This document shows, piece after piece, positions 10,692 through 35,029 of a DNA stretch of 64,000 nucleotides. The number at the start of each line of letters is the position of its first letter. Positions within the stretch are counted from its first letter, which is position 1. The notes beneath the pieces are model-generated. The model ran no database searches and was not told the DNA's origin. It saw only the letters and a list, made by a program, of their open reading frames with translations. Origin of the DNA: Alphaproteobacteria bacterium (lineage in GTDB: Bacteria > Pseudomonadota > Alphaproteobacteria > DSM-16000 > Inquilinaceae); contig JANQSN010000013.1 in NCBI GenBank assembly GCA_028284045.1, forward strand, positions 1 through 64,000, given 5' to 3'. The position numbers and the translations under genes are program-made.

Positions 10692-10729
10692 CCCGGCCCT
10701 CCCGCGACCCTTCTCGAAGACCCGATCCC

Positions 10730-11719: not shown

Positions 11720-13034
11720 CGGACCGGCGACCGCCGCCCGACTGGAGGCGGCGCTGGCGCGGCTGGCCCGGCTGCACCCGAAGATCATCGATCTGTCGCT
11801 GGACCGGCTGGACGGGCTGCTGGCCCGCCTCGGCCGGCCGGAACGGGCACTGGCGCCGGTGGTCCATGTCGCCGGCACCAACGGCAAGGGCTCCACGCTG
11901 GCCTTCATCCGCGCGGGCCTGGAGGCGGCGGGCCGGCGCGTGCATGTCTACACCTCGCCCCATCTCGTGCGCTTCAACGAACGCATCGTCGTCGCGGGCG
12001 AGACCATCGCCGACCGGCCGCTGGCCGACCTGCTGGACCGGGTCGAGCGGATCAACCAAGACCGGCCGATCACCTATTTCGAGGTGACGACGGCCGCCGC
12101 CCTCCTCGCCTTCGCGGAGACGCCGGCCGACAACGTGCTGTTGGAGGTCGGCATGGGCGGCCGCCTCGATGCCACCAACGTCGTCGACCGGCCGGCGGTG
12201 ACCGCGATCACCCGCGTCTCGATGGACCATATGCAGTTTCTTGGGCCGACGCTGGCCGCGATCGCCGCGGAGAAGGCCGGCATCGCCAAGCCGGGCGTAC
12301 CGCTGGTCGTCGGACCGCAGGCGCCCGAGGCCGACGCCGTCATCGCCGCCCACGCCGCCGCCGTCGGCGCGCCCCTGTCCGCGGCGGGCGACGGGCCGGG
12401 CGGCTGGCGGATCGAGCCGGAGGATGGCGGCTTCGTGCGCGTCGATGCGCATGGCCGGCGGCGTTTCGCCGACCCGCCCCTGCCGGGCCGCCACCAACGC
12501 GACAACTTGGGCGTCGCGGTCGGCTGCCTCGACGTCGTCCTCGGCCGGCCGGTCACACCGGCGGAGATCGCCGCCGCCGCGGCGCGGGTGCGCTGGCCGG
12601 GTCGGCTGCAGCGCCTCGACCGCGGGCCGTTGGTCGACCGGCTGCCGTCGGGATGGCGGCTCTGGCTCGACGGCGGCCACAACGACAGCGCCGGCGCGGC
12701 GCTGGCCGACTGGGCCGCCGGCCGGCCGGGATCGGACGCAAGGCCGCTCGTCGTGCTGGCCGGCATGCTGGAGAGCAAGGCGCCGGCGGATTTCCTGCGG
12801 CCTTTGGCGCCCCATGTCGCGGCCCTGGCGGCGATCGCCATCCCCGGCGAGCCGGCGAGCCTGCCGGCCGAAGCGCTGGCCGACCTGGCGCAGGACGCCG
12901 GCATCGCCGCGGTGGCGCCCCACGCCACACCGGACGCGGCCGTCGACTGGCTGGCCGCCCAAGCCGGCGGCGCGGATCTACTGATTACCGGCTCGCTTTA
13001 CCTCGCCGGCCGCATCCTGGCCGACCACGGCTGA
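11703..13034 (+). CDS. folC: bifunctional folylpolyglutamate synthase / dihydrofolate synthase
   Basis: 443 residues. It has the Mur-ligase-type P-loop HVAGTNGKGST (about residues 54-64), the TSPHLVRFNERI motif, EVGMGGRLDATN, SMDHMQFLG, and a C-terminal domain beginning around WPGRLQRL. It adds glutamate to dihydropteroate or to tetrahydrofolate in the cytoplasm. ATG 11703 lies within the end of accD (17-base overlap), so expression is probably coupled to accD. There is no separate promoter and no oddity in the active-site motifs. Confidence 0.96.
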   Translation: MPPDDSGPATAARLEAALARLARLHPKIIDLSLDRLDGLLARLGRPERALAPVVHVAGTNGKGSTLAFIRAGLEAAGRRVHVYTSPHLVRFNERIVVAGETIADRPLADLLDRVERINQDRPITYFEVTTAAALLAFAETPADNVLLEVGMGGRLDATNVVDRPAVTAITRVSMDHMQFLGPTLAAIAAEKAGIAKPGVPLVVGPQAPEADAVIAAHAAAVGAPLSAAGDGPGGWRIEPEDGGFVRVDAHGRRRFADPPLPGRHQRDNLGVAVGCLDVVLGRPVTPAEIAAAAARVRWPGRLQRLDRGPLVDRLPSGWRLWLDGGHNDSAGAALADWAAGRPGSDARPLVVLAGMLESKAPADFLRPLAPHVAALAAIAIPGEPASLPAEALADLAQDAGIAAVAPHATPDAAVDWLAAQAGGADLLITGSLYLAGRILADHG

Positions 13035-13182
13035 GCGGCCTGGCATTCCCGGCGACGGCGCCATAGGCTGGTGGCGCCCGCCATCGATCAACTTCGGTAA
13101 CGATCTCGCGCGGTCGATCATCGGATGGAGCCGAGGGCGGGGCATTTGGGCCGGCCCGAACTGCGAGATCTTGAGTAGACCT

Positions 13183-13791
13183 ATGACCCTGTCCGACGGC
13201 ACCGCGGGCGATCCGTTCGAGCGGTTCATCGATCACCTGAACGGCCTGGACCTGGTGCCGGGCGCCATCGGCGAAGGCGACACCGCCCCGGACTTCCTGT
13301 TGGGATCGCCGGACGGCGCACTGGTCGGGCTCGGCGAGCTGCTGGCCGAGGGGCCGGTCGTCCTCAGCTTCATTCGCGGCGAATGGTGCCCGGCCTGCCA
13401 GCAGGAGATGCGCGCGCTGGCCGACGCCCATGACGCGATCCGCGCGGCGGGCGCCAAGCTGGTCGCCGTCACGCCGGAAACCGGCACGCCGGCCGCCCGG
13501 ATGCGGCGCGACCAGCGCTTGCCCTTCGCCGTGCTGTGCGACATCGATCTGGGGGTAGCGCTGGCCTACGGCCTGGTCTTCCGCCTGACCGACGAGATGC
13601 GCGCGGTCTACGCCCAAGCCGGCTACAACCTGCCGGTGCAGCAGCAGCATGACGGCTGGCTGCTGCCGATCCCGGCGACCTATGTGATCGACCGGGACGG
13701 CATCGTGCGCGCCGCCCACATCGACGCGAACTACCACAACCGCATGTCCGCCCCGGCGATCCTGTCAGCCCTCGCCGGCCTCGCCGGCTAG
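13183..13791 (+). CDS. peroxiredoxin-like protein (AhpC/TSA family)
   Basis: 202 residues. It has a thioredoxin fold with 'SFIRGEWCPACQQEM', a CxxC at about residues 66-69, where the first Cys would be the peroxidatic one; later 'ATYVIDRDGIVRAAHID' is the usual strand-turn of the family. ATG 13183 (MTLSDG) was preferred to a TTG twelve bases upstream. No partner reductase is adjacent. The 3' end overlaps the convergent LysR gene by 27 bases. The CxxC could also allow thiol-disulfide exchange, so the peroxidase role is inferred. Confidence 0.82.
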   Translation: MTLSDGTAGDPFERFIDHLNGLDLVPGAIGEGDTAPDFLLGSPDGALVGLGELLAEGPVVLSFIRGEWCPACQQEMRALADAHDAIRAAGAKLVAVTPETGTPAARMRRDQRLPFAVLCDIDLGVALAYGLVFRLTDEMRAVYAQAGYNLPVQQQHDGWLLPIPATYVIDRDGIVRAAHIDANYHNRMSAPAILSALAGLAG

Positions 13792-20247: not shown

Positions 20248-21804
20248 TCAGATCGGGCGGCCGAGCCGGCGGCCCGGCGGCAGCGCGGGATCGCTGGCCG
20301 GCAGGGTCACGGTGATGGTGGTGCCGCGGCCCGGCTCGCTGTCGATGGTCATGCGCCCGTTGAGATAACCGACCAGCCGCCGGCAGATGGCGAGACCCAG
20401 GCCGAGGCCGTCGGCGGCGTGCAGCGGGGAATGGGCAGGGCGCTCGAACGCTTCCTCCACCCGGGCCAGCGCCTCCGGCTCGATGCCGCGGCCGGTGTCG
20501 CGGATGATCACCAGCGTCTCCGCCGCCTCGCCGACCACCGCAACCTCCACCCGGCCGCCGCGATGGGTGTACTTGATCGCGTTGTCGATCAGGTTGTGCA
20601 GCACACGCCGCAGCGCCGGTTCGTCGCCGGCGACCGGCCTCGGCGAGTCGTCCAGGGTCAGCACCAGTTCCACACCCGCCTCTGTCGCCTTGTCGGCGAA
20701 GGCGTCGACGGCGAGCTGGGCCTCTCGGTCGACCCGGATGCGCAGCGACTCCAGCATCGCCGCGTCGCTCTGCAGCGCGGAAAAATCCAAAATCTCGCCG
20801 ATCAGCTTGAACAGGCGCAGCGCGCTGACATGGATATCGCGGGCGTAGTTGGCGTAGCGGGTATCGCCGACCGGTCCGTGCAGCTCCGACTTCAGCACCT
20901 CCGCGAAGCCGATGATGGCGTTCAGCGGCGTACGCAGCTCATGGCTCATCGAGGCCAGGAACCGGCCCTTCGACAGGCTGCTCTCCCGCGCGTCGATCAG
21001 CGCGCGTTCCAGCTCCTCGTTCTGGTCGCGCAGCGTGGTCAGCGCCTGGCTCAACCGCAGCTCCGACCGGTGGGCGCGCTGCAGCGTGGCGATCTGGTGG
21101 GAGATGTCGGTGCCGCTGCCGCGATAGCCGAGGAACGCGCCGCTGTCCTGGTCGAACACCGGCACGCCGCTGACCAGATGCGTCAGCGTCGAGCCGTCCG
21201 GCCGCTCGATGACGAAGTCGAGATCGCGGAACGGCTGGCGGGACCGGAACACGGCCAGCTCGCTCAGCCGTTCGGCGTCCTGCTCGACCAGGCGGCCCAG
21301 CGTGCCGAGATCCTTGCCGAGCAGCGAGACCGTCGGCCGGCCGAGCATCGCGCCCAAGCGGTCGGAGACGAAGGTCAGCTCCCCCGACGCCGTCACCTCC
21401 CACACCCAGTCGGCCGCGCAGGACAGGAAGTCGCGCAGCCGCTCCTCCGCCTGATGGGCGCGCTCGATGCGGTCGACCCAGGCGGTGATGTCGTCGACCA
21501 GCACGATGAACAGGGCATCGCTGCCCGACGTCGTCGCCAGCGGCAGGCAGGTCAGGTCGACCGCGCCATGTTCCTCGTCCAGCGTGACGCGGGCGCACAT
21601 CAGCCCGCCGCCATTGGTGCGCGCCAGCGCGTCGCCGACCTGGGCGCGGAAGGCGGCGAGCCGGCCGTTGCTCTCGTCCTCCAGATCGGCGATCTGCAGA
21701 AGCTGGCGGAACGGCCCGTTGGAGAACAGAAGGTTGGCGCCCGCGTCGAGGATCGTCAGCGGCGGCATGGCGATATCGAGCAGCCGGGCGACGTCGCCGC
21801 TCAT
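20248..21804 (-). CDS. PAS-domain sensor histidine kinase (hybrid receiver absent)
   Basis: 518 residues, no membrane helix, so probably cytosolic. Two PAS-like regions (about 15-120 and 125-250; the second has 'GYRGSGTDISHQ') lead by a coiled coil to HisKA with SMSHELRTPLNAIIG and an HATPase domain with NLIDNAIKYTHRGG, DTGRGIE and GLGLGLAICRRL. The ATG at 21804 was chosen because GGGGAGGG lies just upstream. A longer in-frame ATG at 21888 would overlap the upstream DUF2336 gene and add a low-complexity stretch. The partner regulator is not adjacent. Confidence 0.9.
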   Translation of the reverse strand: MSGDVARLLDIAMPPLTILDAGANLLFSNGPFRQLLQIADLEDESNGRLAAFRAQVGDALARTNGGGLMCARVTLDEEHGAVDLTCLPLATTSGSDALFIVLVDDITAWVDRIERAHQAEERLRDFLSCAADWVWEVTASGELTFVSDRLGAMLGRPTVSLLGKDLGTLGRLVEQDAERLSELAVFRSRQPFRDLDFVIERPDGSTLTHLVSGVPVFDQDSGAFLGYRGSGTDISHQIATLQRAHRSELRLSQALTTLRDQNEELERALIDARESSLSKGRFLASMSHELRTPLNAIIGFAEVLKSELHGPVGDTRYANYARDIHVSALRLFKLIGEILDFSALQSDAAMLESLRIRVDREAQLAVDAFADKATEAGVELVLTLDDSPRPVAGDEPALRRVLHNLIDNAIKYTHRGGRVEVAVVGEAAETLVIIRDTGRGIEPEALARVEEAFERPAHSPLHAADGLGLGLAICRRLVGYLNGRMTIDSEPGRGTTITVTLPASDPALPPGRRLGRPI

Positions 21805-21865
21805 CGCGCCCTCCCCCCGCCGCGAACCGGCGGCGACGCCTGTGCCTGCGCGGGCCCGAAGCGGC

Positions 21866-23047
21866 TCATCGGGCGAGTCCGGGGCCATCGGCGGTCACCG
21901 TCTCGGAAAGGCGGACACGGTCCATGCGCTCGACGGCGTCGAGATAATCCGGGTGACGCCGCCAGAAGGCCAGCATCCGCTGCGCGCGATCCGGCCGGGT
22001 CTGCTCGAACAACGTCATCAGCGATTCCAGGCGCCGCGGCGCCACCGTCGCCCCGCCGCGTCCGCCCGACGACATCAGCAGGTAGAGCGTGCCGAAATCG
22101 GAACGTTCGATCCGGCAGGCACGGCAGAGGATCGCCAGGCTCTCACCGTCGCCGTCCAGCACGATCCGCCGGGCGACCGGCGACGGCAGCCGGGCGAACC
22201 GCGCCAGCGCCTCCACGAACACCGGGACCCGGCCGGTGCGCAACAGCCGGATCAGCAGCGCCGGCGTCACGCGCTCCTGCTCACCCAGCGAGGTTGCCAG
22301 CCGCCCGGCGGCGATCCCCAACCCCTCGCCGCTGCCGGCCGCGGGGGGCGGCCGCTCGGCCAGATCGAGGCTGGAGCCTTCCAGCGCGTCGTCGAGGTCC
22401 TCGTGACGGATCGGAAAGCGCTGCAGGATGAACCGGCGCAGCGCCGCACCGACATGCCAGTAGAGCTTCATCGCCAGCCCCGCCGGCAGGTCGGCGCGCG
22501 ACAGCAGCGGGCGTTGGAAGCGGTCGACATGCTGCGCTTCCGCGACGAGATAGTGCATCGCCGCATCGGACAGCGTGGCGGAGGCATTGCCCAACAGGCC
22601 CTCGATGACATCGCCGTCGCCGGTCGCCACCAGGGCGTCGCTGACCGCCGCACTCAAAGACTGGCGCAGCGCGATGGCCAAGTGGTGCTCGCGCCCCCGT
22701 TGGCGAATCACCTCGATCAGGTCGGGATCGCGCATCACCTCGCTGTGCATCAGGATCGGCCGGGCGATCTCGATATCGTCGTTGGCGAGCAGGGTGACCA
22801 GCTCGCGCGGCGCCTCGTCGATTCGGGACAGCCGCTCCGCGACTTCGCGGCGTACGGCCATCTCTACTTCCTGGACGAGATCACCAAGTATTCCGACGAT
22901 CAGCGATCGTTCACGATCGCTCAGCCGCGCGTCATCGCGCAGGAAAAGATCGCAGACACTTTCGAACAACAACTCACGGCTCTCGCGGCGCCTGTCTTGC
23001 GCGAGATTAAGCAGGTCCACGATCCCATCGTCGTCTTCCAGGGCCAT
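21866..23047 (-). CDS. DUF2336 domain-containing protein
   Basis: 393 residues, largely helical. It has repeated 'VRREVAERLSRIDEAPRELVTLLANDDIEIARPIL' style units of the HEAT-like kind seen in DUF2336 proteins, followed by 'LSDAAMHYLVAEAQ' and a C-terminal 'RACRIERSDFGTLYLLMSS' segment. The family is largely confined to alphaproteobacteria; the function is unknown, and members often neighbour signalling genes. Here it lies 61 bases upstream of a histidine kinase gene on the same strand, so co-transcription is likely and a scaffold or regulatory role in that pathway is plausible. Confidence 0.87.
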   Translation of the reverse strand: MALEDDDGIVDLLNLAQDRRRESRELLFESVCDLFLRDDARLSDRERSLIVGILGDLVQEVEMAVRREVAERLSRIDEAPRELVTLLANDDIEIARPILMHSEVMRDPDLIEVIRQRGREHHLAIALRQSLSAAVSDALVATGDGDVIEGLLGNASATLSDAAMHYLVAEAQHVDRFQRPLLSRADLPAGLAMKLYWHVGAALRRFILQRFPIRHEDLDDALEGSSLDLAERPPPAAGSGEGLGIAAGRLATSLGEQERVTPALLIRLLRTGRVPVFVEALARFARLPSPVARRIVLDGDGESLAILCRACRIERSDFGTLYLLMSSGGRGGATVAPRRLESLMTLFEQTRPDRAQRMLAFWRRHPDYLDAVERMDRVRLSETVTADGPGLAR

Positions 23048-23382: not shown

Positions 23383-23988
23383 TTAGCTCTTCGGATTGGG
23401 CAAAACGCAGCCCAGCACAGCATGCAGTGTCACCGGATCGATGATGCAGCCGCGAAGATTGGCGCGCCACAGGTCGGCCCCGTCGAGGACGGCGCCGATG
23501 AAACGGCTATCGCGCAGGTCGCTGTCGGACAGATCGGCCTCGGTCAGCCGTGCCCCGGTGAAGTCGGCACCGATCATCGTCGCCGCGGACAGGTTGGTGC
23601 GCTCCAGGACCGCTCCGGCGAAGCCGACGCCCGTCAGATCGGCCTGCGAGAGATCGGCATCCGTCAGATCGACGCCGGTAAGGTCAAGCTCGCTCAAGTC
23701 CAAGCCGGACAGATCGGCGCGCCGGCCGTCCGCCTCGCCGCGCAGCCAGGCATGGTGGCCGGCCAGCGCGCGCAGCAGATGGCGCCGCTTCGCCGACTGG
23801 TCCTTCGCCTCTTCCGCTTCGGCGGTGCTGCGGTCGACGATGCGGGTGTTGCTGGGCAGCCGCGCGCACAGATAGCGCACGCGAAGCTGACGCCGGGCCT
23901 CCTGCTCGCTCTTGGCGACGATCTCGCCGATCTCGGGCGGGGCGCCGGGATGCAAACGCAGCTCGTAGAGATAGGTGTGGGCAGTCAT
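23383..23988 (-). CDS. pentapeptide-repeat protein
   Basis: 201 residues. Residues 1-90 are a mixed domain (TYLYELRLHPGAPP..., then a helical KDQSAKRRHLLRALAGHH). About residues 92-185 are roughly eighteen tandem five-residue units of the A(D/N)LxX type, such as ADLSG LDLSE LDLTG VDLTD, which form a right-handed square beta-helix. The domain serves in protein binding, as in DNA-gyrase mimics, but no target can be named. ATG 23988 was preferred over an upstream ATG at 24054. It is the last gene of the co-directional kai/tre run, 72 bases after the degenerate regulator. Confidence 0.85.
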   Translation of the reverse strand: MTAHTYLYELRLHPGAPPEIGEIVAKSEQEARRQLRVRYLCARLPSNTRIVDRSTAEAEEAKDQSAKRRHLLRALAGHHAWLRGEADGRRADLSGLDLSELDLTGVDLTDADLSQADLTGVGFAGAVLERTNLSAATMIGADFTGARLTEADLSDSDLRDSRFIGAVLDGADLWRANLRGCIIDPVTLHAVLGCVLPNPKS

Positions 23989-24060
23989 CGCACCGGGGTG
24001 TGGCTGGAGGGAGGGGAGGCACCGGCCGGCAGGCGCGCCGGCGCGGCCGGCCAACGAGCG

Positions 24061-24870
24061 CTACAACAGGAAGTGGTAGCTGAGCGCGGCGGCGAGGTCG
24101 TCGCCGAAGCGCTCGTTCTTGCGGATCACCGGGATGTGCTGGGGCAACGTGTTCAGCGTCTCGTTGCCCTTCGACAGGCTGGTGATCACGGCCACGGGAA
24201 TGTTGCGGGTTTCCGGCATGTGGGTCAGCGCCATGGCGAGATCCAACCCCGACAGGCCGGGCATCACCGCGGAGATGATCATCATGTCGGGCTTGGTGTG
24301 CACCGCATGCTCCAGGGCGGCGACGGTCGAGGTGCACAGGCCGACCCGATAGCCGCAGGCCTGCAGCTCGCGCGCGACGAACCGGGTCTGGGCGCCGTGC
24401 AGCATAACCAGCATGACCTCGACGGCGCGGATCTCGATTTCGTCGAAATCCTTCTCGCGCGGCCGCGCCGGCAGCGTCCGGACGATCTCCGCCGGGTTGC
24501 TGTCGGTGGAGATGGCGCCTTCGCCGATGTCGCTGATCGTATCGAGATAGATGCGGATGTCGCCGACCCGCGCCGCCGTCAGGGCATCGATGGCGGAGGT
24601 GTAGTCCTCCAACCGGGCCGCCACCACCTCCAGCAGCGTCAGGCCGAAGTTATGGGCCTGACCCTTGATGGCGAAGGCGAACCGGCGGATCGGGTCGAGC
24701 GGCGCCTCCTCGTTCAAGCCGTCGGCCAAGCCGCGCGCACCGTCGACGGTGTCGGCGACGAAATCGCCCATCATGTTCTGGACGAGGCCCAGCGCGGCGC
24801 CGGCGTAGATGCCCTGAGAGACGGTGGTAACGGCCATGGCAGAGGTTCCGGATGCAACCTTCGATGGCAT
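24061..24870 (-). CDS. degenerate response-regulator protein with HPt-like N-terminal region
   Basis: 269 residues. About 60-115 is helical with 'FAIKGQAHNFGL' (His73), similar to a histidine-phosphotransfer helix. About 150-265 is a receiver-like fold: VEVMLVMLHGAQ, then PDMMIISAVMPGLSGLDLA, then IPVAVITSLSKG. The normal phospho-acceptor Asp is Ser200, and the acidic pair after the first strand is also lost (LHGA). It therefore cannot take phosphate at the usual place and probably works by binding. The start is uncertain, with a second ATG at 24837. It lies 78 bases after treY on the same strand. Confidence 0.75.
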   Translation of the reverse strand: MPSKVASGTSAMAVTTVSQGIYAGAALGLVQNMMGDFVADTVDGARGLADGLNEEAPLDPIRRFAFAIKGQAHNFGLTLLEVVAARLEDYTSAIDALTAARVGDIRIYLDTISDIGEGAISTDSNPAEIVRTLPARPREKDFDEIEIRAVEVMLVMLHGAQTRFVARELQACGYRVGLCTSTVAALEHAVHTKPDMMIISAVMPGLSGLDLAMALTHMPETRNIPVAVITSLSKGNETLNTLPQHIPVIRKNERFGDDLAAALSYHFLL

Positions 24871-24948
24871 GAGCGGGATCGCGAGCGGCCAACGATCGCT
24901 CCCCGCCGGTTAAGGATTGGATAATGGCGCCGCCGGGTCGGCGGGCCG

Positions 24949-27936
24949 TCAGCCCCCGGCGGGCTCGGAGATCAGGACAGCCACCGGCAGCCGGGCCAGC
25001 AGATCGGCGACCCGCAGCCGCTCCGCGACGCCGTGGCGGCTCGCCGTCAGGCAATCGGTCAGCGCGCCGCCCACCGTGACGGCTTCCGGCAGGACGACGG
25101 CGGTGTCGCCCCAAGCGGTCGCCGGCACCAGCGGCAAATCGCCGTCGCCGATCAGCCCGGCCACCAGCCGCGGTACCACGACGACCAGCACCGTCGTGTC
25201 GATCACCCGGGCGAAGGCGACCACCCGGTCGCCCTGGGCACCTACTACCTCCAACGGTTCGTAGTCGCCGTCGGTGAAGACCAACGGGGCCTCGCGGCGC
25301 AGCCGCAACAGGCGCGACAGGATGAAGGTCTTCAGCCGGCCGTCGCGCCACTGGCCCAGGAGCCGCGCCAGATCGGCGTCGTAGATCGGCCCTTCCAACG
25401 CGGCCAGCGTCTCGCAGCGCTGGGCGAAGTCCACCGGCCGCCGGTTGTCCGGGTCGACCAGCGAAAGATCCCAAAGCTCGGTGCCCTGATAGAGATCCGG
25501 GATGCCGGGCACGGTCATCTTCAACGCGGTCTGCACCAAGCCGTTCAACGCCCCCGGGGCGGCGATCGTCGCCTCGAAGCGCGACACGTCGGCAAGAAAG
25601 GACGCGCTGCGCGCCGGGTCCAGCACGGCGCGCACGAAGCCTTCCACCGCGTCCTCGTAGTCCGCATTCGGCAGCGTCCAGGACGACACCAGCTTCGCCT
25701 CGCGCACCGCCTTGATCATGTATTGCACCAGCCGGTCGGCGTAGGCGGCCAGCGCGGCCGGATCGGCATCGCCCTGGCCCAGCGGCCAGGCGCCGACCAG
25801 GACCTGATAGAACAGGTACTCGTCGTTGCGCGTCGGCCAGACCTCGTCGCCGCTCTGCCGGCGCTTCGCCGCGTTCAGCTCCATCCAGCGGTCGACGCGG
25901 GCCGACCATTCCGCGGCATGCTCGGTGATCGCGTCGATGCGCACGCGGGTGTCCTCGCCGCGCTTGTGGTCATGGGTCGCGGTCGCCAGCAGCGTATAGG
26001 GGTGGTGGCGCAGCCGGTCCTGGTTCAGCCGATGGAAGGCGGCGACGGAGATGCCGAAGCGGCCCGGCTCGCCGCCGACCTCGTTCAGCGACACCAGGCG
26101 GTAGTAGCGGTAGAAGGCGGTGTCCTCGATCGCCTTGGCCATCACCGGACCGGTGAACTGCTGAAACTTCATCGCGGTCTTCAGAACTTCCCGACGGCGG
26201 TAGCCGGACCCGCGCTCGCGCGCCAGATCGGTCGTCAGCACCGCATGGAGGAAGTTCAGCACGCCGGGATCGCCGGTCCGCCCCACCATCTCCCGCCGCG
26301 CCCGGGCGAAGGCCCAGTCGAGATCGCGCCGATCTTCCTCCGTCACCCCGCGGTCGCTGATATAGGTGCGGTAGACGGGGAAATGCGACACCACGCTGAC
26401 CAGCGCCTCCTTCACGCCGGGCAGCGTGAAGTCGCGGGTCAGCCAGGATTGCCGCGCCAGCTCGTGCAGGTCGGAGGCGAGAACGGTGAACTCGCTGGCC
26501 AGGATCGTACCCACGACCTGGCGCTTGGCGGCCAGCGCCACCTGCTCCAGATCGCTCGGCTGGCCGAGCACCCGCTCATAGAGCTGCGTCATCGGCTGTT
26601 CCGCCGCGGGATCGACGAACAGCCCGTTCAGGAGGTTCATCACCTCATAGCCGGTGGTGCCGTCGATCGGCCAATCCGGGCGCAGCCGCTCGTGCCGGGC
26701 GAGGATCTTCTCCACCAGCAGGTAGAAGGGATGGGTGCGCTCGCGCAGCGTCAGCCCGCCCCCGACCGCGGCTCCCCGCGCAGCCGGCCCCCGCGCGACC
26801 GGCAGGGTGGCGCCGATCTCGCGCTGCATGACCAGATAGGCGGCGCGGTCTTGCAGCTTGCGGCAATAGGCTTCCGGGTCGAACAGCCCGTCGGTGTGGT
26901 CGAGCCGCAGGCCGTGGATGCGCCCTTCGGCGATCAGCCGGAAGACGAGCTGATGGGCGACCTCGAACAGGTCGTCGCGCTCCATGCGCAAGCCCGCCAG
27001 GTCGTTGATGTCGAAGAACCGGCGATAGTTGATCTCCGCCGTGGCGACCCGCCAATAGGCCAGGCGGTAGGACTGGCGCTCCAACAGGCGGTGCAGGCCG
27101 CGCAGGCTGGGCGGATCGCCGGGCGTGCCGTTGACCTGCGCCAGCGCCTCGGTAATCGCCGCCAGGATACCGACATCGGCGGCGGTCAGCCGGGCCAGCC
27201 GGGCCTTCAGCGCGTCGGCCCGGCGATGCACGACCGCCTGCTGGCGCACCGACCGGCGGTTGGGCCGGAGTGCGGCGAACTCCGCGATCAGCGCGCCCAG
27301 CGCGTCCGACGGCGCGGCCAGGCGCTCGCGCGCCGCCCGCAGCAGGGCCGGATAGTCGCGCAGCGCCAGCGGGAAGCGGTGTTCCCAATAGCGCATGTCG
27401 AAGCTGCCGCGGTCGCCGTCATAGGCCAGGCGGAGCTGGCCGCTCTCCAACACGATGCCGTAGTGATCGCCGAGGAACGGCACCAGCACCTTGCCGCGCA
27501 GGCTCGGCTCCGCCGGCGACCAGTCGATGTCGAAGAAGCCGGCGAAGGGGCTGGCCTGGCCCCATTCCAGCACATCCAGCCACCACGGATTGTCGGACCC
27601 GCCGACGCCCATATGGTTGGGCACGAAATCGGCGATCAGCCCCATCGACTGCTCGGCCAGCGCATCGCCGAGCCGGGCGAAGCTGTCGGCGGTGCCGATC
27701 TCCGGATTGAGGCGGTTGTGATCGGTGATGTCGTAGCCGTGGGTCGACCCCGCGCGGGCGGTCAGGAAGGGCGAGGCGTAGACATGGCTGATGCCGAGGC
27801 GCGCCAGATAGGGCACCAGGTCGGCCGCGTCGTCGAAGGTGAAGCTGCGGTTGAGCTGCAGGCGGTAGGTCGCCCGCGGCACCGCCGGCGGACCGTCGCG
27901 CGCCGGCGCGGCGGAGGTTCCGTCGTCAGGCGTCAT
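24949..27936 (-). CDS. treY: malto-oligosyltrehalose synthase
   Basis: 995 residues, long for TreY. It turns the reducing-end alpha-1,4 bond of glycogen-derived maltodextrins into an alpha,alpha-1,1 bond. Visible features are ATYRLQLNRSFTFDDAA..PYLARLGISHVYASP at the start, HGYDITDHNRLNPEIG, the nucleophile region GLRLDHTDGLFDPEAY, LLVEKIL with the general-acid Glu, and TATHDHKRGEDTR with the third acid. The ATG at 27936 is preceded by TGAGGGA. treZ ends ten bases upstream, so TreY and TreZ are made from one message and together release free trehalose. Confidence 0.95.
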   Translation of the reverse strand: MTPDDGTSAAPARDGPPAVPRATYRLQLNRSFTFDDAADLVPYLARLGISHVYASPFLTARAGSTHGYDITDHNRLNPEIGTADSFARLGDALAEQSMGLIADFVPNHMGVGGSDNPWWLDVLEWGQASPFAGFFDIDWSPAEPSLRGKVLVPFLGDHYGIVLESGQLRLAYDGDRGSFDMRYWEHRFPLALRDYPALLRAARERLAAPSDALGALIAEFAALRPNRRSVRQQAVVHRRADALKARLARLTAADVGILAAITEALAQVNGTPGDPPSLRGLHRLLERQSYRLAYWRVATAEINYRRFFDINDLAGLRMERDDLFEVAHQLVFRLIAEGRIHGLRLDHTDGLFDPEAYCRKLQDRAAYLVMQREIGATLPVARGPAARGAAVGGGLTLRERTHPFYLLVEKILARHERLRPDWPIDGTTGYEVMNLLNGLFVDPAAEQPMTQLYERVLGQPSDLEQVALAAKRQVVGTILASEFTVLASDLHELARQSWLTRDFTLPGVKEALVSVVSHFPVYRTYISDRGVTEEDRRDLDWAFARARREMVGRTGDPGVLNFLHAVLTTDLARERGSGYRRREVLKTAMKFQQFTGPVMAKAIEDTAFYRYYRLVSLNEVGGEPGRFGISVAAFHRLNQDRLRHHPYTLLATATHDHKRGEDTRVRIDAITEHAAEWSARVDRWMELNAAKRRQSGDEVWPTRNDEYLFYQVLVGAWPLGQGDADPAALAAYADRLVQYMIKAVREAKLVSSWTLPNADYEDAVEGFVRAVLDPARSASFLADVSRFEATIAAPGALNGLVQTALKMTVPGIPDLYQGTELWDLSLVDPDNRRPVDFAQRCETLAALEGPIYDADLARLLGQWRDGRLKTFILSRLLRLRREAPLVFTDGDYEPLEVVGAQGDRVVAFARVIDTTVLVVVVPRLVAGLIGDGDLPLVPATAWGDTAVVLPEAVTVGGALTDCLTASRHGVAERLRVADLLARLPVAVLISEPAGG

Positions 27937-27946
27937 CGGCGGTCCC

Positions 27947-29803
27947 TCAGCGCTCGGCCGGCTGGTCTTCGATCAGCGCCAATACCGACCAGGCCGGCAG
28001 GTACCCGGCCTCGCAGTCGCCCAAGAGGCCCGATCCGCTCTGATAGACCGGCCGCCCCATCGGCCGGCGGCAGCCGTCGCTGCGCGTCGCGGCCAGATTG
28101 GTCACCAGATGCAGGCGCGGGCCGTCCGGCCCGGCGGGCCAGGTGACGGTCAGCCCGCACACCCCCCAGCGGGTGGCCGTGGCGGTGCCGGGCCGGATCC
28201 GGGGGATCAGCGGCACGACCTCCGCACGCCGCACGGCCAACAGGCGGCGGTAGACGTCCAGCCAGGCCTGCGGGCCCGGCATCGAGGCCGTCGGCCAATC
28301 GAGCCTGGAGGCGGCGAAGGTGGTCTCCGCGTTCGGGTCGGGGATGCGCTCCCGGCTTGCCGGATCGGCGAATTCCGGGAAGCGCCCGAATTCCCGACGC
28401 CGGCCGTTGCGCACGGCGTCGGCCAGCGCATCGTGGAAGTCGCAGAAGTAGAGGAAGGGCTGCGTCGCCCCCCATTCCTCCCCCATGAACAGGAGCGGGA
28501 TCGCCGGCGACAGCAGTAGGGCCGCCGCCACCGCCTGCGCCGTCTCCGGCGGCACCAGCCGGGCCAGGCGGTCGCCCCAGGCGCGGTTGCCCACCTGGTC
28601 GTGGTTCTGGGCGAAGGCGACGAAGCCGTCGGGCGGCAGATGGGCCGACGGCTCGCCCCGACGCGCCCCGTCATGGAAGGCGGAGCGGTCGCCCTGATAG
28701 ACGAAGCCCTGCGTCAGGGCGCGGCCCAGCAGGCTTGCGGGATCCTTCTGGTAGTCGGCGTAGTAGCCCCCGGCCTCGCCGGTGCCCAGGACGTGGAAGA
28801 CGTGGTGGATGTCGTCGTTCCACTGGGCGGTGAAGGCCCGCGGGGCCGCCGGCCGCCCCGCCTTGGCCGGCAGACGGTCGAGGAACCGCGCCTCGTTGGC
28901 GTCGTTCTCCAGCACCAGATGGGCCCGGCGGCCGGGCGACAGCCGGGCACGCACCGTCTCGCCCAACTCGTCGAGGATGTGGCGCGCGCTCTCGTCGCGG
29001 ATCGCATGCACCGCGTCGAAGCGCAGCCCGTCGAAGCGGTACTCCTCCAACCAGTAGAGCGCGTTCTCGATGTAGAAGTCGCGCACCGGCCGGCGCGAGA
29101 AGTCGATGGCCGCGCCCCAGGGTGTGTCGAACCGGTCGGTGAAGAAACCCGGCGCATAGGTGTGCAGGTAGTTTCCGTCCGGCCCGAAATGATTGTAGAC
29201 GACGTCGAGAAACATCATCAGCCCGCGGGCATGCGCCTCGTCGACCAGCGTCTTCAGGCTCTCCGGCGACCCGTAGGCGCGATCGGGCGCGAACATCAAG
29301 ACGCCGTCATAGCCCCAGTTCCGCCGCCCCGGGAAATCGGCCACCGGCATCAGCTCGACCGCCGTGACGCCGAGGCCGGCCAGGTGGTCGAGCCGCCGCC
29401 GCACGCCGTCGAAGCTGCCGTCCTCGCTGAAGGTGCCGGCGTGCAGCTCGTAGAGGACGGTCTCCTCCCAGGGACGGCCGGTCCAGCCGCGGGTCTGCCA
29501 GCGCATCGCCCGCGGGTCGACCACCACGCTCGGCCCATGGGCGTCGTCGGCCTGGGCGCGCGATGCCGGGTCCGGCACCTCAAGCCCGTCGTCGAGGCGG
29601 TAGCGGTAGCGGCTGCCGGCCCGTGCGGCCGCCGTGGTCAGGGAGAACCAGCCGTCGCCCTCCGACTCCAGCGCCAGCGGGGCGGCGTCGTCCAGCACCA
29701 GCTTCGGCGCCTTCTGGGCCGGCGCCCAGAACCGGAAGCGCACGCGGCCGTCGCGCTCGATTTCCGCGCCGAACGACAGCTTGAAGGCGTGGGTCTCGGT
29801 CAT
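27947..29803 (-). CDS. treZ: malto-oligosyltrehalose trehalohydrolase
   Basis: 618 residues. An N-terminal beta domain (FGAEIERDGRVRFRFWAPAQ) precedes the GH13 barrel with ELHAGTFSEDGSFDGV, FLDVVYNHFGPDGNY, the nucleophile in GLRFDAVHAI, the Glu in LVLENDANEA and the third acid in AFAQNHDQVGNRAWGDR. It hydrolyses the bond next to the trehalose unit made by TreY. ATG 29803 was chosen since it opens the beta domain; an upstream in-frame extension would overlap the GH13 gene. Gene order from the promoter is GH13, treZ, treY, with 65- and 10-base gaps. Confidence 0.95.
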   Translation of the reverse strand: MTETHAFKLSFGAEIERDGRVRFRFWAPAQKAPKLVLDDAAPLALESEGDGWFSLTTAAARAGSRYRYRLDDGLEVPDPASRAQADDAHGPSVVVDPRAMRWQTRGWTGRPWEETVLYELHAGTFSEDGSFDGVRRRLDHLAGLGVTAVELMPVADFPGRRNWGYDGVLMFAPDRAYGSPESLKTLVDEAHARGLMMFLDVVYNHFGPDGNYLHTYAPGFFTDRFDTPWGAAIDFSRRPVRDFYIENALYWLEEYRFDGLRFDAVHAIRDESARHILDELGETVRARLSPGRRAHLVLENDANEARFLDRLPAKAGRPAAPRAFTAQWNDDIHHVFHVLGTGEAGGYYADYQKDPASLLGRALTQGFVYQGDRSAFHDGARRGEPSAHLPPDGFVAFAQNHDQVGNRAWGDRLARLVPPETAQAVAAALLLSPAIPLLFMGEEWGATQPFLYFCDFHDALADAVRNGRRREFGRFPEFADPASRERIPDPNAETTFAASRLDWPTASMPGPQAWLDVYRRLLAVRRAEVVPLIPRIRPGTATATRWGVCGLTVTWPAGPDGPRLHLVTNLAATRSDGCRRPMGRPVYQSGSGLLGDCEAGYLPAWSVLALIEDQPAER

Positions 29804-29868
29804 CTCGATCCAGCTCGATGCAAGGGCGGCAGGGGACGCCGGACGGCGTCCTCGGGTCGGGACGGACG

Positions 29869-31191
29869 CTAATCGGATACGAACAGACGCAGGCTGAGCG
29901 GCGGGACGGTCAGCGTCGCATGGTCGTCGAGCCGCGTCACCGGCATACCCGGCGTACGCTCGGCGAAGCGGGCCGGGTCGCCCGCGGCCGCGAGATCGCC
30001 CAGCGAGAGGGTCGCCGGGGCGTCGCAATCGGGATTGACCAGCGTCAGGACGGCGGCGGCGCCGTCTGGGCCGGCCTCCGGGCGGATGTCCTCGCCGGCA
30101 ACCCGCAGAAGCGCCAAGACGGGGCCGTCCGGCGGGCCGATCGATGCCTGCGCGCCCTCTACATTCAAGGTCGCCACAGACGCCTTCAGCGCGTTGGCCT
30201 CCGCCACGAAGCCGGTCAGGTCGAAGGCCGCCTGGTCGGCCTCCGCCGCCCAGTCCGACGGCCGGCTGTCGACGACATGCGGCTTGCGGCGGAAGCCGTA
30301 CTCATAGCCCATCGGCAGCATCACGCCGGATGAGAACAACACGGCGAAGAGATAGCGCAGGCAATAGTGACGCTCGATCTGGCCGGGCTCGACCTCGCCG
30401 ATATCGGTCGCCAGGCGCTCGGTGTCATGGCTTTCCGGAAAGGCGATCGACGGCGCGATGGTACGGAAGGCCGCGTATTGCTCCAACAGCCAGGGGTCGC
30501 GGAAATTCCACCATTTCGCGCTGTTGAACAGATAGTCGAAACCGGCGCCGGCCAGCGCCGCCACCTCCTCCGGCGTGCAGCCCAGCGTCTCCGCGGCGAA
30601 CAGGCAGTCCGGCCGGCGCCGCCGGGCATGCGCGATCAGCGGCTGCCACACCGCTGCCGGCACCTGATAGGCGGCATCGCAGCGGAACCCGCGGATGCCG
30701 CGGTCGAGCGCCCAGTCGAGATAGGCCTGCCAATGCGCCACCAGCGCGTCGGCAACCTCCGCGCGGGCATAGTCCAGCTCCGCCAAGTCGCCCCAGATCG
30801 TCACGTTGTCCGGGTCGTCGGGGTCGACAGCGCGCGGCGAGTAGAGTGCGCCGTCCGCATCGCGGCGATACCAGTCGGGGTGCGCGTCGGCGAGCAGCGC
30901 ATCCTTTGCCGTGTGGTTGATCACCAAGTCGATCATCACCGACAGGCCGGCCGCCTCGGCCGCCCGGACGAAGCCGTCGACGGCCGCATCCATCGGCGTG
31001 CCGTCGTCGATCACCGCATGCAGCCGGCCCATGTCCTTGATGGCATAGAGGCTGCCGGAGAACCCGGCATAGTGGAACGGGTTGACGTAGATCCAGTCGA
31101 ACCGCATGCGGGCGATGCGCGCGACATGCTCGCCCCAGTGCGGCACCGGGCCCGCCAGCAGCGGGAACAGATTGTAGATGCGCGGCCCCAT
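29869..31191 (-). CDS. GH13 alpha-amylase-family enzyme, stand-alone
   Basis: 440 residues, short for GH13. It opens with RIYNLFPLLAGPVPHW and WIYVNPFHYAGFSGSLYAI. Catalytic motifs are GFRCDAAYQVP (nucleophile Asp), LFAAETLGCT (acid/base Glu) and FPESHDTERL (third acidic residue), and LVINHT precedes them. The C-terminal beta domain is short. As I recall, the same opening occurs in a GH13 module fused to GlgE-like maltosyltransferases in some alphaproteobacteria; here it stands alone. It could debranch, transfer or hydrolyse maltodextrins and so feed TreY/TreZ (no treX is seen). The exact reaction cannot be read from the sequence. Confidence 0.8.
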   Translation of the reverse strand: MGPRIYNLFPLLAGPVPHWGEHVARIARMRFDWIYVNPFHYAGFSGSLYAIKDMGRLHAVIDDGTPMDAAVDGFVRAAEAAGLSVMIDLVINHTAKDALLADAHPDWYRRDADGALYSPRAVDPDDPDNVTIWGDLAELDYARAEVADALVAHWQAYLDWALDRGIRGFRCDAAYQVPAAVWQPLIAHARRRRPDCLFAAETLGCTPEEVAALAGAGFDYLFNSAKWWNFRDPWLLEQYAAFRTIAPSIAFPESHDTERLATDIGEVEPGQIERHYCLRYLFAVLFSSGVMLPMGYEYGFRRKPHVVDSRPSDWAAEADQAAFDLTGFVAEANALKASVATLNVEGAQASIGPPDGPVLALLRVAGEDIRPEAGPDGAAAVLTLVNPDCDAPATLSLGDLAAAGDPARFAERTPGMPVTRLDDHATLTVPPLSLRLFVSD

Positions 31192-31279
31192 GGCTCTGTT
31201 CGGCGCTCCTCGGCGTAACGGTCACTGTTCCTTCGTGGCCGGATCCGCAAAGGGGACCCGCCGCCGCCGCCTCGGGCGC

Positions 31280-33205
31280 CTACGATCCGAGGTCGCTCAG
31301 CACCCGCTCCGCGGGAAAGACGAGCCGCGCGGTGGTGCCCTCGCCCGGCCGGCTGACCAGGTCGACGGTGCCGCCATGCAGATCCATGAAGGCCTTGGTG
31401 ATCGGCAGACCGAGCCCGGTGCCCCGGTGGCGCACGCCGTCGCTGGCGCGCACCTGGACGAAGGGCAGGAAAGCCTTCTCAAGATCCGTCGCGGTCATCC
31501 CGCGGCCGGTGTCGGCGACCTCGATCCCGAGCGACGCCTCGTCGGCCAGTCCGGCGCGGACGGTGACCTGGCCACCGGCATCGGTGAACTTCAACGCGTT
31601 GGACAACAGGTTCAGCAGGGCCTGGCGCACCGCGCGCTCGTCCGCGCGCAGCATCGGCAGGGTCGGCGGCAGGTCCAGCACAACCTGGATGGATCGCTCG
31701 TCCGCCCGCATCCGCAGCATGCGCACGTCGTCCGTGATGATCCGCCGGATATCGACGATACCTTCGGCCAAGTCGTAGCGGCCCGCCTCGATCTTCGCCA
31801 TGTCCAGGATGTCGGCGATGATCTCCAGCAACAGCTTGCCCGACAGCCTGATGTCGCGGGCGTATTCGCGGTAGCGCGGCGCCAGCTCGTCGCCGAGCAT
31901 GCGGCCCTCGATCATCTCCGCGAAGCCGATGATGGCGTTCAGCGGCGTGCGCAGCTCGTGGGTCATGCTGGCCAAGAAGTCGCTCTTGGCCCGGTTGGCC
32001 ACCTCCGACTCGCGCTTGGCCGTCAACAGCTCCAGCTCGCTCGCCTTGCGCTCGCTGATGTCGGTGACCAGCACCAGCGTCAGGGGCTGGATCGGCCGCA
32101 CCGCGTCGACCTGGGGGGCAGGCATCTGCGAGACGGTGACGTCGACCGGCAGGGTGCGGCCGGCGAGGCCGACCGCCCGCATCTCCCGCCGCTTGGCCAG
32201 GTCGTCGGGATCGCCCGCAGCGCAGTAGCCGTCGAGGAAGCTGCGCTCCGGCCCGAGATCGTGCCGCGCGTGGAACAGCCGCTTGATCGCCAGGCCGGCC
32301 AACCGCTCCGGGCCCGCCTCGAACAGCCGCTCCGCGGCCGGATTGGCCCAGACGATGCGGCCTTCCCGATCGATCGCCACCAGCGCGTCGACCATCGCCG
32401 CCATCAGCGCCCGACCCTGGCGGTAGAGCGCCAAGAACCCTTCCAGCGAGGCATCGGGCGGCGTTACGTCGCGGATCGAGACCAGCTTCTCGCCCGCCCC
32501 CAGCCATCTCAGCGGCGACAGGCGCATCTCCACGATCCGGCGCGCGCCGGCGCCGGCGACATCCAGCTCGATGGCGTCGCCGCCGCTGAGCGGTTGCCCG
32601 AAGGCGCTGCCGGTCAGGCCGGCGCGCGGCCGACCCAACAGATCCGCCGCCTTGGCATTGCACAGGCGGATGGTGCCGGTGCGGTCGATGACCAGCAGGC
32701 CGTCGGGGCTCAGCGCCACGAGGCCTTCCAGCGCATCCTCCGAATCCGTGATCCGGGCCGCAAGCGCCCGGCGTTCGACGTCGCCGCGCCGTTCCCGGAT
32801 CAGCCGGCAGACCAGGCGGCCCGCCAGCGGATTCGCCAGGTCCTCCAGGCTGAGGCACTCGTCCGCGCCCAACCCGATCGCCGTGGAGCGGGCTACCGCA
32901 TCGCCCGGCGGGACGACGGCCAGCACCACCGGTTCAATCCCCGGCCGGCGGGCCATCTCCAGCCGCTTCGCCATGGCGGCGGCATCGAAGGGGGCGGCAA
33001 TCACCTGCGCCACGACGGGCAGACCGGACGCCGTCGCGGCGGGATCGGCAAGGCACCAGGGCATGCCGTCCAGCAGCGCGCCGAGCGCGGCGGCCAGCCG
33101 GGTCCGCGTCTCACCATCGGTGGTGACGATCTGCACGATCCCATCGGCCGCGCCACGGCTGCCAGGTTGGGCCGGTTCGTCGTCCACGGTCAGGGTATCG
33201 ACCAT
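31280..33205 (-). CDS. PAS-domain histidine kinase of the kaiB-kaiC cluster
   Basis: 641 residues, soluble. Residues 22-140 resemble a receiver without usable phospho-acceptor residues (pseudo-receiver). PAS domains lie at about 155-250 and 265-390 (the second has VAIDREGRIVWANPAAERLF). HisKA carries His416 in SMTHELRTPLNAIIG; the HATPase domain has NLLSNALKFTDAGG, VADTGRGM and GTGLGLPITKAF. It begins 19 bases after kaiC ends. Cyanobacterial SasA reads KaiC through an N-terminal KaiB-like domain; this kinase has none, so it must couple in another way. Confidence 0.9.
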   Translation of the reverse strand: MVDTLTVDDEPAQPGSRGAADGIVQIVTTDGETRTRLAAALGALLDGMPWCLADPAATASGLPVVAQVIAAPFDAAAMAKRLEMARRPGIEPVVLAVVPPGDAVARSTAIGLGADECLSLEDLANPLAGRLVCRLIRERRGDVERRALAARITDSEDALEGLVALSPDGLLVIDRTGTIRLCNAKAADLLGRPRAGLTGSAFGQPLSGGDAIELDVAGAGARRIVEMRLSPLRWLGAGEKLVSIRDVTPPDASLEGFLALYRQGRALMAAMVDALVAIDREGRIVWANPAAERLFEAGPERLAGLAIKRLFHARHDLGPERSFLDGYCAAGDPDDLAKRREMRAVGLAGRTLPVDVTVSQMPAPQVDAVRPIQPLTLVLVTDISERKASELELLTAKRESEVANRAKSDFLASMTHELRTPLNAIIGFAEMIEGRMLGDELAPRYREYARDIRLSGKLLLEIIADILDMAKIEAGRYDLAEGIVDIRRIITDDVRMLRMRADERSIQVVLDLPPTLPMLRADERAVRQALLNLLSNALKFTDAGGQVTVRAGLADEASLGIEVADTGRGMTATDLEKAFLPFVQVRASDGVRHRGTGLGLPITKAFMDLHGGTVDLVSRPGEGTTARLVFPAERVLSDLGS

Positions 33206-33224
33206 CGCCGCAGCCGCGCCCGGT

Positions 33225-34730
33225 TCAGCCGGTGGTCAGCCGGGCGACGCCGGGTCCGTACATCGGATTGCCGGCGAGGATACCGTTGATGTTGTAGAAC
33301 GGCTCCGCGACATGCATGCCGGAGGCGTCGATGTTGAACTCGCGGATGTTCTTGTCGTGCATCGACCCGCGCATCTTCAGCACGGTGATGCCGCGGCGCA
33401 TCTGGCCGTCCATCTCCACATAGCGCAGCAGGATGATGCTGTCGGTGATGGTCGAGATATGCGCCTCGGTGACCGAGGTGCCGCCCAGCAAGGTCGGCGT
33501 GGTCGCGGTAAACAGCCCGGCGATCTCCTGATGCTTGATGAAGGAGGTCAGGCTGATGACGAACTCGCGGAAACCCCGGGGCGTCGCCACCCGCTCCAGC
33601 GCCGACAGGCTGTCGATCGCCACCCGGTTGGGCCGGAACCGCTCGATCGCCGCGCGCATGCGCACCAGATGGTCTTCCAGCCCCATCACCTCCGGATAGA
33701 GGCAGACGACCTCCAGGACGCCGTCGGCCTCCATCTTCGCGAAGTCGATGCCCCAGCCGCTGGCGTTGCGGAAGAGCTGCTCGCGGCTCTCCTCGAAGGC
33801 GAAGACCATGGACCGCTCGCCCTCGCTGGCACCGCCCGCCAGGAAATGCGTGACGATCAGGGTCTTGCCGGTGCCGGTGGCGCCGGACACCAGAATGACG
33901 CTGTCGCGGAAGAAGCCGCCGCCGCACATCCGGTTGATCTCGTCCACGCCACAGGAGATCCGGACGTTGGAGGAGCGCTGCTTGAGCTGGATCGCCGACA
34001 GCGGAATGACGGTCACGCCGTATTCCGGCTGGATGGTCAGCGGATACTCACCCTTCTGGTGATAGGCGCCGCGGAACTTCAGGATCTCGATGGTGCGGCG
34101 GCGCTTCTCCTCTTCCAGCGCGTTGCGCAGGATGACGACGTTGTCGGTGACGAACTCCTCCACGCCGTAGCGGGCGATCGACCCGTACTCGCCGTTGCGC
34201 TCCGCCGTCATCACCGTGGTGACCGAGCGGCGCTTCAGCGCCGACGCGATGCGGAACAGCTCGCCGCGGATCAGGGTCTCGTCCTGGAAGCGGGAGAACA
34301 CAGCGCCGAGACTGTCCAGAGCCAGCCGGCGCGCGTCGATCTTGTCGATGGCGTATTCCACCCGCGTCAGCAGACCGGCGAGGTCGTAGCGGCCGACCAC
34401 CGCGACGTTGTGATCGGAGAGCTGCGGCGAGGCGTCGACGAAGATCCATTTGCCGGCGGCCTCCCAGGCGGGGATGTCCCAGCCGAAGCTCGCCATGTTG
34501 ACGCGGATGTCCTCCGGCGCTTCCTCGAAGGTGACGAAGACGCCGGGCTGGTCGAAGGCGGTGATGCCCGTGGCCAGGAACTGGCAGGCGAACAGCGTCT
34601 TGGCGCTGCCGGCCGTGCCGGCCACCAGGGTCGTGCGGTTCTCCGGCAACCCGCCATTGGCGATCTCGTCGAAGCCGGGAATGCCCGTGGCCATCTTGCC
34701 GATCGAGCGCAGTATCTCTCGACTGCTCAT
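33225..34730 (-). CDS. kaiC: KaiC-family tandem ATPase
   Basis: 501 residues, close to cyanobacterial KaiC (519). There are two RecA-like domains. CI has P-loop GTAGSAKT (38-45) and catalytic Glu pair 69-70. CII has P-loop GATGTGKT (283-290) and Glu pair 313-314. The CII segment TEAHISTITDS keeps a Ser-Thr pair (426-427) at the place of Ser431-Thr432, the phosphorylated residues of Synechococcus KaiC, followed by MRGSMHDKNIREF. ATG 34730 gives the standard short N-terminus. kaiB ends 17 bases upstream and no kaiA-like gene is present. Expected activities are ATP hydrolysis and autophosphorylation with KaiB binding. Confidence 0.93.
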   Translation of the reverse strand: MSSREILRSIGKMATGIPGFDEIANGGLPENRTTLVAGTAGSAKTLFACQFLATGITAFDQPGVFVTFEEAPEDIRVNMASFGWDIPAWEAAGKWIFVDASPQLSDHNVAVVGRYDLAGLLTRVEYAIDKIDARRLALDSLGAVFSRFQDETLIRGELFRIASALKRRSVTTVMTAERNGEYGSIARYGVEEFVTDNVVILRNALEEEKRRRTIEILKFRGAYHQKGEYPLTIQPEYGVTVIPLSAIQLKQRSSNVRISCGVDEINRMCGGGFFRDSVILVSGATGTGKTLIVTHFLAGGASEGERSMVFAFEESREQLFRNASGWGIDFAKMEADGVLEVVCLYPEVMGLEDHLVRMRAAIERFRPNRVAIDSLSALERVATPRGFREFVISLTSFIKHQEIAGLFTATTPTLLGGTSVTEAHISTITDSIILLRYVEMDGQMRRGITVLKMRGSMHDKNIREFNIDASGMHVAEPFYNINGILAGNPMYGPGVARLTTG

Positions 34731-34747
34731 GCCTTGCCTTCCTGCCC

Positions 34748-35029
34748 TCACATCTCGCCCTGGCCGAGGCCCAGGGCATCGCTGACCGCCTGCATATCGG
34801 ACAGATCGCCGATCACCCGGCGCATCGGCGGCGGCGCCACCTTGATCAGGGTCGGCGTGGCCAGCAGGTTCTCCTCTTCCGCCACCTCGGGACGGCTGAG
34901 GATGTCGATGACTTCCAGGTCGCACGCCACGGCATTCGGCTGAGACAGGAGCCGACGCACATTGGCCAGCGCCTGTTCAGACCGGGTCGTCTGACCGCTT
35001 AGGTAAAGCCGCAGAACGACGGCGGCCAT
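34748..35029 (-). CDS. kaiB: KaiB-family protein
   Basis: 93 residues, the size of KaiB (about 100). LRLYLSGQTTRSEQAL, LEVIDILSRPEVAEEENLLATPTL and PPPMRRVIGDLSD match the thioredoxin-like, fold-switching KaiB family closely. ATG 35029 has AGGAG seven bases upstream; a longer in-frame start at 35209 lacks family similarity. It is first in the run kaiB-kaiC-kinase-GH13-treZ-treY. In cyanobacteria KaiB binds the phosphorylated CII-CI state of KaiC; in KaiA-less bacteria it can reset or modulate KaiC. The upstream region carries a possible stress-type promoter. Confidence 0.93.
   Translation of the reverse strand: MAAVVLRLYLSGQTTRSEQALANVRRLLSQPNAVACDLEVIDILSRPEVAEEENLLATPTLIKVAPPPMRRVIGDLSDMQAVSDALGLGQGEM

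Follow-up and report, generated by a model that had tools for sequence, protein, structure and literature searches.

A kaiB-kaiC pair precedes trehalose-forming enzymes in a gene block conserved within one alphaproteobacterial family

KaiB and KaiC are the core of the cyanobacterial clock, and trehalose is a protective sugar. To our knowledge, the outputs of KaiBC outside cyanobacteria are mostly unknown, which is why its role in those organisms is largely open. The portions of PMC3164672 and PMC5520375 at hand are in line with this. What, then, could a kaiB-kaiC pair be doing at the head of a run of genes that includes enzymes for the release of trehalose from glycogen? This arrangement is found in a stretch of 64,000 nucleotides of contig JANQSN010000013.1, referred to here as the window, from an alphaproteobacterial genome of 4.32 Mb in 63 contigs (G000). 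We compared its genes with Pfam and NCBIfam profiles and with the genomes of relatives, and found that the block is real, that it is conserved in a small clade and that it is a variant of a known module. A functional tie between its two halves is plausible. The genes are, in order of transcription:

34748..35029, minus strand: kaiB, 93 amino acids, starting with ATG at 35029 (Pfam KaiB, E = 1.7e-23)
33225..34730, minus strand: kaiC, 501 amino acids, two-domain (circ_KaiC over cut-off, PDB alignment, motif census)
31280..33205, minus strand: HK1, a PAS-HisKA-HATPase kinase, without a counterpart at the same place in relatives G009 and G010
29869..31191, minus strand: GH13 alpha-glucan enzyme, 440 amino acids (Pfam, alignments)
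27947..29803, minus strand: treZ, malto-oligosyltrehalose trehalohydrolase (TIGR02402)
24949..27936, minus strand: treY, malto-oligosyltrehalose synthase (TIGR02401)
24061..24870, minus strand: HptREC, an Hpt-like helical domain plus a pseudo-receiver (weak Hpt and Response_reg matches)
23383..23988, minus strand: pentapeptide-repeat protein, 201 amino acids (Pfam Pentapeptide, E = 1.4e-26)
21866..23047, minus strand: DUF2336 gene, co-directional and conserved within the block
20248..21888, minus strand: HK2, a PAS histidine kinase whose open reading frame overlaps the DUF2336 gene, conserved within the block

The eight genes from kaiB to the pentapeptide gene had been placed on the minus strand in this order by an initial annotation made from the letters alone, and the profile searches bear out each of them. 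The seven gaps it gave between these genes (17, 19, 88, 65, 10, 78 and 72 bases, in order from kaiB) were reproduced exactly from open reading frame coordinates and start codons. The run was thus correctly described but stops short of the end of the block, which continues in the same direction through the DUF2336 gene and HK2. The DUF2336 protein scored 153.7 bits against NCBIfam SpbR, below the cut-off of 400.

The first two genes have the features of a KaiBC timer module, in which a KaiB-family gene adjoins a gene for a two-domain KaiC. KaiC scored 635.8 bits against NCBIfam circ_KaiC (cut-off 546.25) and retains the P-loop GATGTGKT in its CII domain, the glutamate pairs TFEE and FEES and the phosphosite stretch TEAHIST. 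In the CI P-loop, GTAGSAKT, an alanine precedes the lysine, as it does in 26 of the 40 KaiC rows compared (two rows had no data). The C-terminal tail is short, with no long extension. The best PDB match by sequence was 8zn5 (709 bits). Further full-length KaiC chains scored 565-597 bits, and another group came lower, at about 336-340 bits. Plasmid-borne KaiC relatives are all less than 60% identical to the window protein, those of Cereibacter about 38.6%. KaiB has a single match in the whole genome; of five KaiC-domain matches, the window KaiC alone has two full ones and the other three are partial.

The trehalose half of the block is equally clear, as treZ is followed by treY and both products exceed their curated cut-offs (TreZ, 692.1 bits against 538.8 for TIGR02402; TreY, 989 bits against 498.65 for TIGR02401), TreY being the only copy over cut-off in the genome. 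No gene for the debranching enzyme GlgX (TreX) was found in the window operon, where another GH13 enzyme takes its place. This enzyme, which partly matches alpha-amylases and GlgE, has the usual Asp, Glu and Asp intact across four aligned genomes, at positions which we take to be those of the GH13 catalytic motif, and it would presumably supply maltodextrins to TreY. Within the family, glgX lies beside treZY in seven of the eight treZY loci unlinked to kaiBC, either upstream of treZ (G007, G011, G012 and G016) or downstream of treY (G001, G002 and G005), and the eighth, G014, has the GH13 gene. These surroundings were compared in 11 of the 13 genomes of the order with TreY, that is, in all except G003 and G006.

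Evidence that the arrangement is no accident of one genome comes from two species of another genus in the same family. In G009 (JANQIX010000108.1), kaiB, kaiC, GH13, treZ, treY, HptREC, the pentapeptide gene, the DUF2336 gene and HK2 follow each other on one strand in the order of the window. The order is identical in G010 (JANQQD010000002.1), a different species of the genus of G009, where the linkage is read from two contigs, each of them broken off within kaiC. This recurrence in two other species is more than chance. Identity across the two genera is 65-67% for TreY and TreZ, and the pentapeptide protein is 57% (G009) and 56% (G010) identical to that of the window. The overlapping DUF2336 and HK2 genes (20248-23047) are kept as a pair in both. 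We also observed that the G010 record is titled Anaerolineae; its KaiC (L021) is almost the same as the KaiC of an alphaproteobacterial relative, and G010 is placed in the family of the window, so that the title looks wrong.

When window open reading frames of at least 90 amino acids were compared with 62.8 of the 63.0 kb of the G009 contig (tblastn, E <= 1e-15, more than 60 aligned residues), matches were confined to the stretch between serC-serA (16.5 kb) and an MFS gene (37.2 kb), and no window open reading frame outside it matched the contig. The block is therefore an island of kept gene order on the compared G009 contig. In a KaiC tree of 58 rows (G000, G006 and G007 each entered twice), G000, G009 and G010 form a clade (support 100/99), with G007 next outside, and in the TreZ tree the window, G009, G010 and G014 group together (96/96); the TreY tree gave no resolved position for the window protein. 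G007 (JAAAOG010000074.1) has the two gene sets on separate contigs, one with kaiBC followed by a PAS protein and the other with glgX-treZ-treY. In G014, the run GH13-treZ-treY lies on a contig that ends just past treY, and the 6 kb preceding it there gave no match to kaiBC.

Behind kaiC, the three blocks differ. HK1 stands between kaiC and GH13 in the window, and neither the G009 nor the G010 block has a kinase there, so that the kinase, listed in the run by the initial annotation, is a variable member of the linked cluster. The N-terminal 262 residues of HK1 align with proteins from many phyla whose genes directly follow kaiC, and in which the PAS domain is often preceded by a receiver-like one. 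HK1 itself consists, from N- to C-terminus, of a receiver-like part without an acceptor Asp, the KaiC-associated PAS, a second PAS, HisKA and HATPase. The strand-helix order of the receiver-like part (residues 23-125) is predicted with low to moderate confidence (predicted local distance difference test about 50-85), and its column for the acceptor Asp holds a different residue in the alignment. The assignment rests on the alignment and the predicted strand order because structural searches were filled with PAS matches; some members of this REC-PAS family are without any receiver.

A PAS domain like the first one of HK1 is encoded just downstream of kaiC in 21 of 34 loci. The census took in those of 38 KaiC loci that extend at least 1.2 kb beyond kaiC, and it counted PAS domains encoded in the same orientation no more than 2.5 kb away. 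The domains that follow it vary, with GGDEF in L031 and a kinase in L064 of G001 (both by Pfam; the others were judged by eye). Across these loci (L020-L057), the KaiC-associated PAS gives the impression of a widely used adaptor for KaiC output. Given this distribution, the old unit is kaiBC together with a PAS signalling protein, and the trehalose genes are a newer attachment. Within the family, a PAS protein of the HK1 type stands behind kaiC in G001 (a kinase by Pfam), G006 and G007 (no kinase domain in the 270 residues scanned). By parsimony, therefore, the ancestral arrangement would be kaiB-kaiC-PAS protein, and G009 and G010 would have lost the kinase. Searches with the HK1 N-terminus, which included 12 of the 17 genomes of the family (all except G001, G003, G004, G005 and G010), gave matches in 9 of 18 genomes, several of them weak and PAS-only; the best in G009, 33% identical, lies on another contig.

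Taken together, these observations suggest a reading to which we give about an even chance, namely that a KaiBC timer of energy state is co-expressed with glycogen-to-trehalose enzymes to which it was joined in an ancestor, and serves in the management of a stress sugar. The inherited kaiB-kaiC-PAS-kinase unit would be a KaiBC hourglass timer whose setting depends on the ATP/ADP state and that came to lie upstream of a GH13-treZ-treY operon in the ancestor of the two genera, the joined block then being kept while the surrounding gene order changed. Transcription from upstream of kaiB would run via kaiBC into the trehalose enzymes, co-expression being the most likely form of the link. If the transcript is shared, cells would make the timer and the stress sugar together upon a change in energy, starvation or osmotic conditions. 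KaiC may then tune how long the stress state lasts, via HK1 in the species of the window and in trans in the other genus.

The main competing explanation is that kaiBC and GH13-treZY are incidental neighbours, joined once, kept in order by descent and each with its own promoters and role. We consider this a serious possibility, somewhat less probable than the timer reading. The rarity of linkage is on its side. KaiB and TreY occur in 7 and 13, respectively, of the 17 genomes sampled in the order. Among 385 genomes of the class, 13 have KaiB over cut-off, 33 have TreY and 7 have both, and the two lie within 15 kb of each other solely in G000 and G009; among 384 genomes of the phylum, the figures are 36, 63 and 9, with linkage solely in G000. 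Pooling the three samples, the genes are linked in 3 of the 19 genomes that hold both, all from one family, a hand tally that includes many draft assemblies whose contig ends may hide linkage. Of the 38 close KaiC loci taken from titled records across many phyla, one has treY in its flanks, and this (L020) is G009 itself; another (L021) is the truncated contig of G010, and several further contigs are short. One of these loci, L038, holds two tandem kaiB-kaiC pairs (9691-13327) in a record titled Candidatus Helarchaeota archaeon, where a binning error is possible. With kinship between genomes ignored, co-occurrence of KaiB and TreY is significant in the class (TreY in 7/13 genomes with KaiB vs 26/372 without; p 2e-5), a point in favour of the timer reading, and not in the phylum (9/36 vs 54/348; p 0.16) or the order (7/7 vs 6/10; p 0.10).

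Several features of the block itself also weigh against a functional tie. The conserved stretch includes serC, serA and the MFS gene, which have no evident connection to trehalose; the kinase is missing from two of the three blocks; and the gap between kaiC and GH13 widens to 191 bases in G009. Patterns resembling EcfG, RpoH or RpoN sites were absent from the minus strand of the window block, and footprinting found little conserved between the two genera upstream of kaiB; the same holds upstream of GH13. The single promoter-like match in 15.5 kb does lie upstream of kaiB, at a frequency expected by chance (1 found vs 0.8 expected). Two loose EcfG-like matches in G009 fall inside coding sequence, and G009 and G010 have one RpoN-like match in common between kaiC and GH13, of a pattern found twice in the 64-kb window with both strands counted.

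Incidental neighbourhood fits less well with an order held across two genera at the divergence of their TreY and TreZ, on a contig where nothing outside the stretch matches, or with the tight co-directional spacing in the window. No terminator-like site was found on the minus strand from kaiB to treZ, and co-transcription is plausible in the window and less certain in G009. The proposal of the initial annotation that kaiBC is linked to TreY and TreZ can be kept as far as physical joining and conservation in G009 and G010 are concerned, but among the genomes sampled the linkage is restricted to one family.

A tighter coupling can also be envisaged, in which KaiC binds or phosphorylates GH13, TreZ, TreY or HptREC, or HK1 and HK2 signal via HptREC, so that the switch would be post-translational. 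Signalling and enzyme genes are interleaved and conserved in this order, and the model of HptREC shows the fold of a receiver, superposing on DivK with Z 17.0 and 2.3 Å over 119 residues; pseudo-receivers serve protein contacts in the cyanobacterial clock. We nevertheless regard direct control as improbable, as HK1 is not a constant member of the block, and HptREC has lost its acceptor positions in the window and occurs in 45 of the 385 class genomes, most of which have neither KaiB nor TreY. The phosphorylatable His of its Hpt domain is replaced by Phe in the window, G009 and G010, being kept in 5 of 18 family rows. The acceptor Asp has given way to Ser in the window protein, and 16 of the 18 rows have Ser at this position. 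The protein that the initial annotation called a degenerate regulator belongs to a family spread widely among alphaproteobacteria, which in the class sample shows no significant co-occurrence with KaiB (4 of 13 genomes, p 0.053) or TreY (5 of 33, p 0.57). Its loci are mostly without the other genes of the window block. Two further identities were considered for HptREC and rejected, that of a KaiA substitute in view of this same distribution, and that of PhyR, since PhyR chains found by Foldseek deviated by 13.6-15.4 Å over both domains and a His does stand at the Hpt position in five of the 18 family rows.

A different purpose for the same wiring is suggested by contig C6 of the window genome, where malQ, glgX, glgB and a treS-maltokinase gene lie together, each over at least one curated cut-off (GlgX, 1052.5 bits against 640.9). 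With this cluster, glycogen and trehalose could be interconverted in a carbon-store cycle timed by KaiBC, whether diel or between feast and famine, instead of serving stress protection. The parts of PMC9041414 available to us indicate that Defluviicoccus genomes hold both pathways and mostly also kaiC and kaiB; we think such a cycle rather unlikely. Similarly doubtful is the strictest form of the timer reading, in which KaiBC would be a dedicated compatible-solute timer, the moment of conversion of glycogen to trehalose being set by the state of KaiBC, itself dependent on energy or time. If this form holds, a non-cyanobacterial clock module would gain a defined, genetically linked metabolic output.

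The gene arrangement nevertheless hints that the job of this timer is to manage a stress sugar. As kaiBC, with or without the kinase gene, is followed by GH13-treZ-treY within 88-191 bases, the block offers a concrete candidate output that can be assayed, and the blocks that naturally have or lack HK1 provide a built-in comparison. The initial annotation knew of no description of this grouping, and we likewise found none of kaiBC-treZY linkage in the open-access PMC literature (preprints not covered).

Among known systems, the block resembles the GlgX(TreX)-TreZ-TreY operon in the succession of treZ and treY, and differs from it in having another GH13 gene upstream of treZ, preceded in turn by kaiBC. 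Defluviicoccus, the subject of the one paper found to name treZ, treY and kaiC together, likewise combines kaiB, kaiC and treYZ in one genome, although the available parts of PMC9041414 do not mention linkage of the two sets. In Ramlibacter and other non-cyanobacteria, the gene behind kaiC encodes a signalling protein, which in many cases is a kinase, and the Ramlibacter kinase is described with a receiver-like N-terminus as in HK1; the Ramlibacter unit is without kaiB, and the accessible text of PMC3164672 mentions no trehalose genes beside kaiC. The KaiC of R. palustris is summarised in PMC10128053, as far as its consulted portion goes. Another close parallel is the KaiBC hourglass of R. (Cereibacter) sphaeroides, which, in the sections of PMC10076222 at hand, is set by the ATP-to-ADP ratio; its kaiB adjoins a gene for a two-domain KaiC, and kaiA is not next to them. 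A kinase within its kaiBC operon is mentioned in the available part of PMC5520375. The window KaiC departs from that system in its length of 501 amino acids and its lack of a long C-terminal extension, and its gene is followed by those for trehalose.

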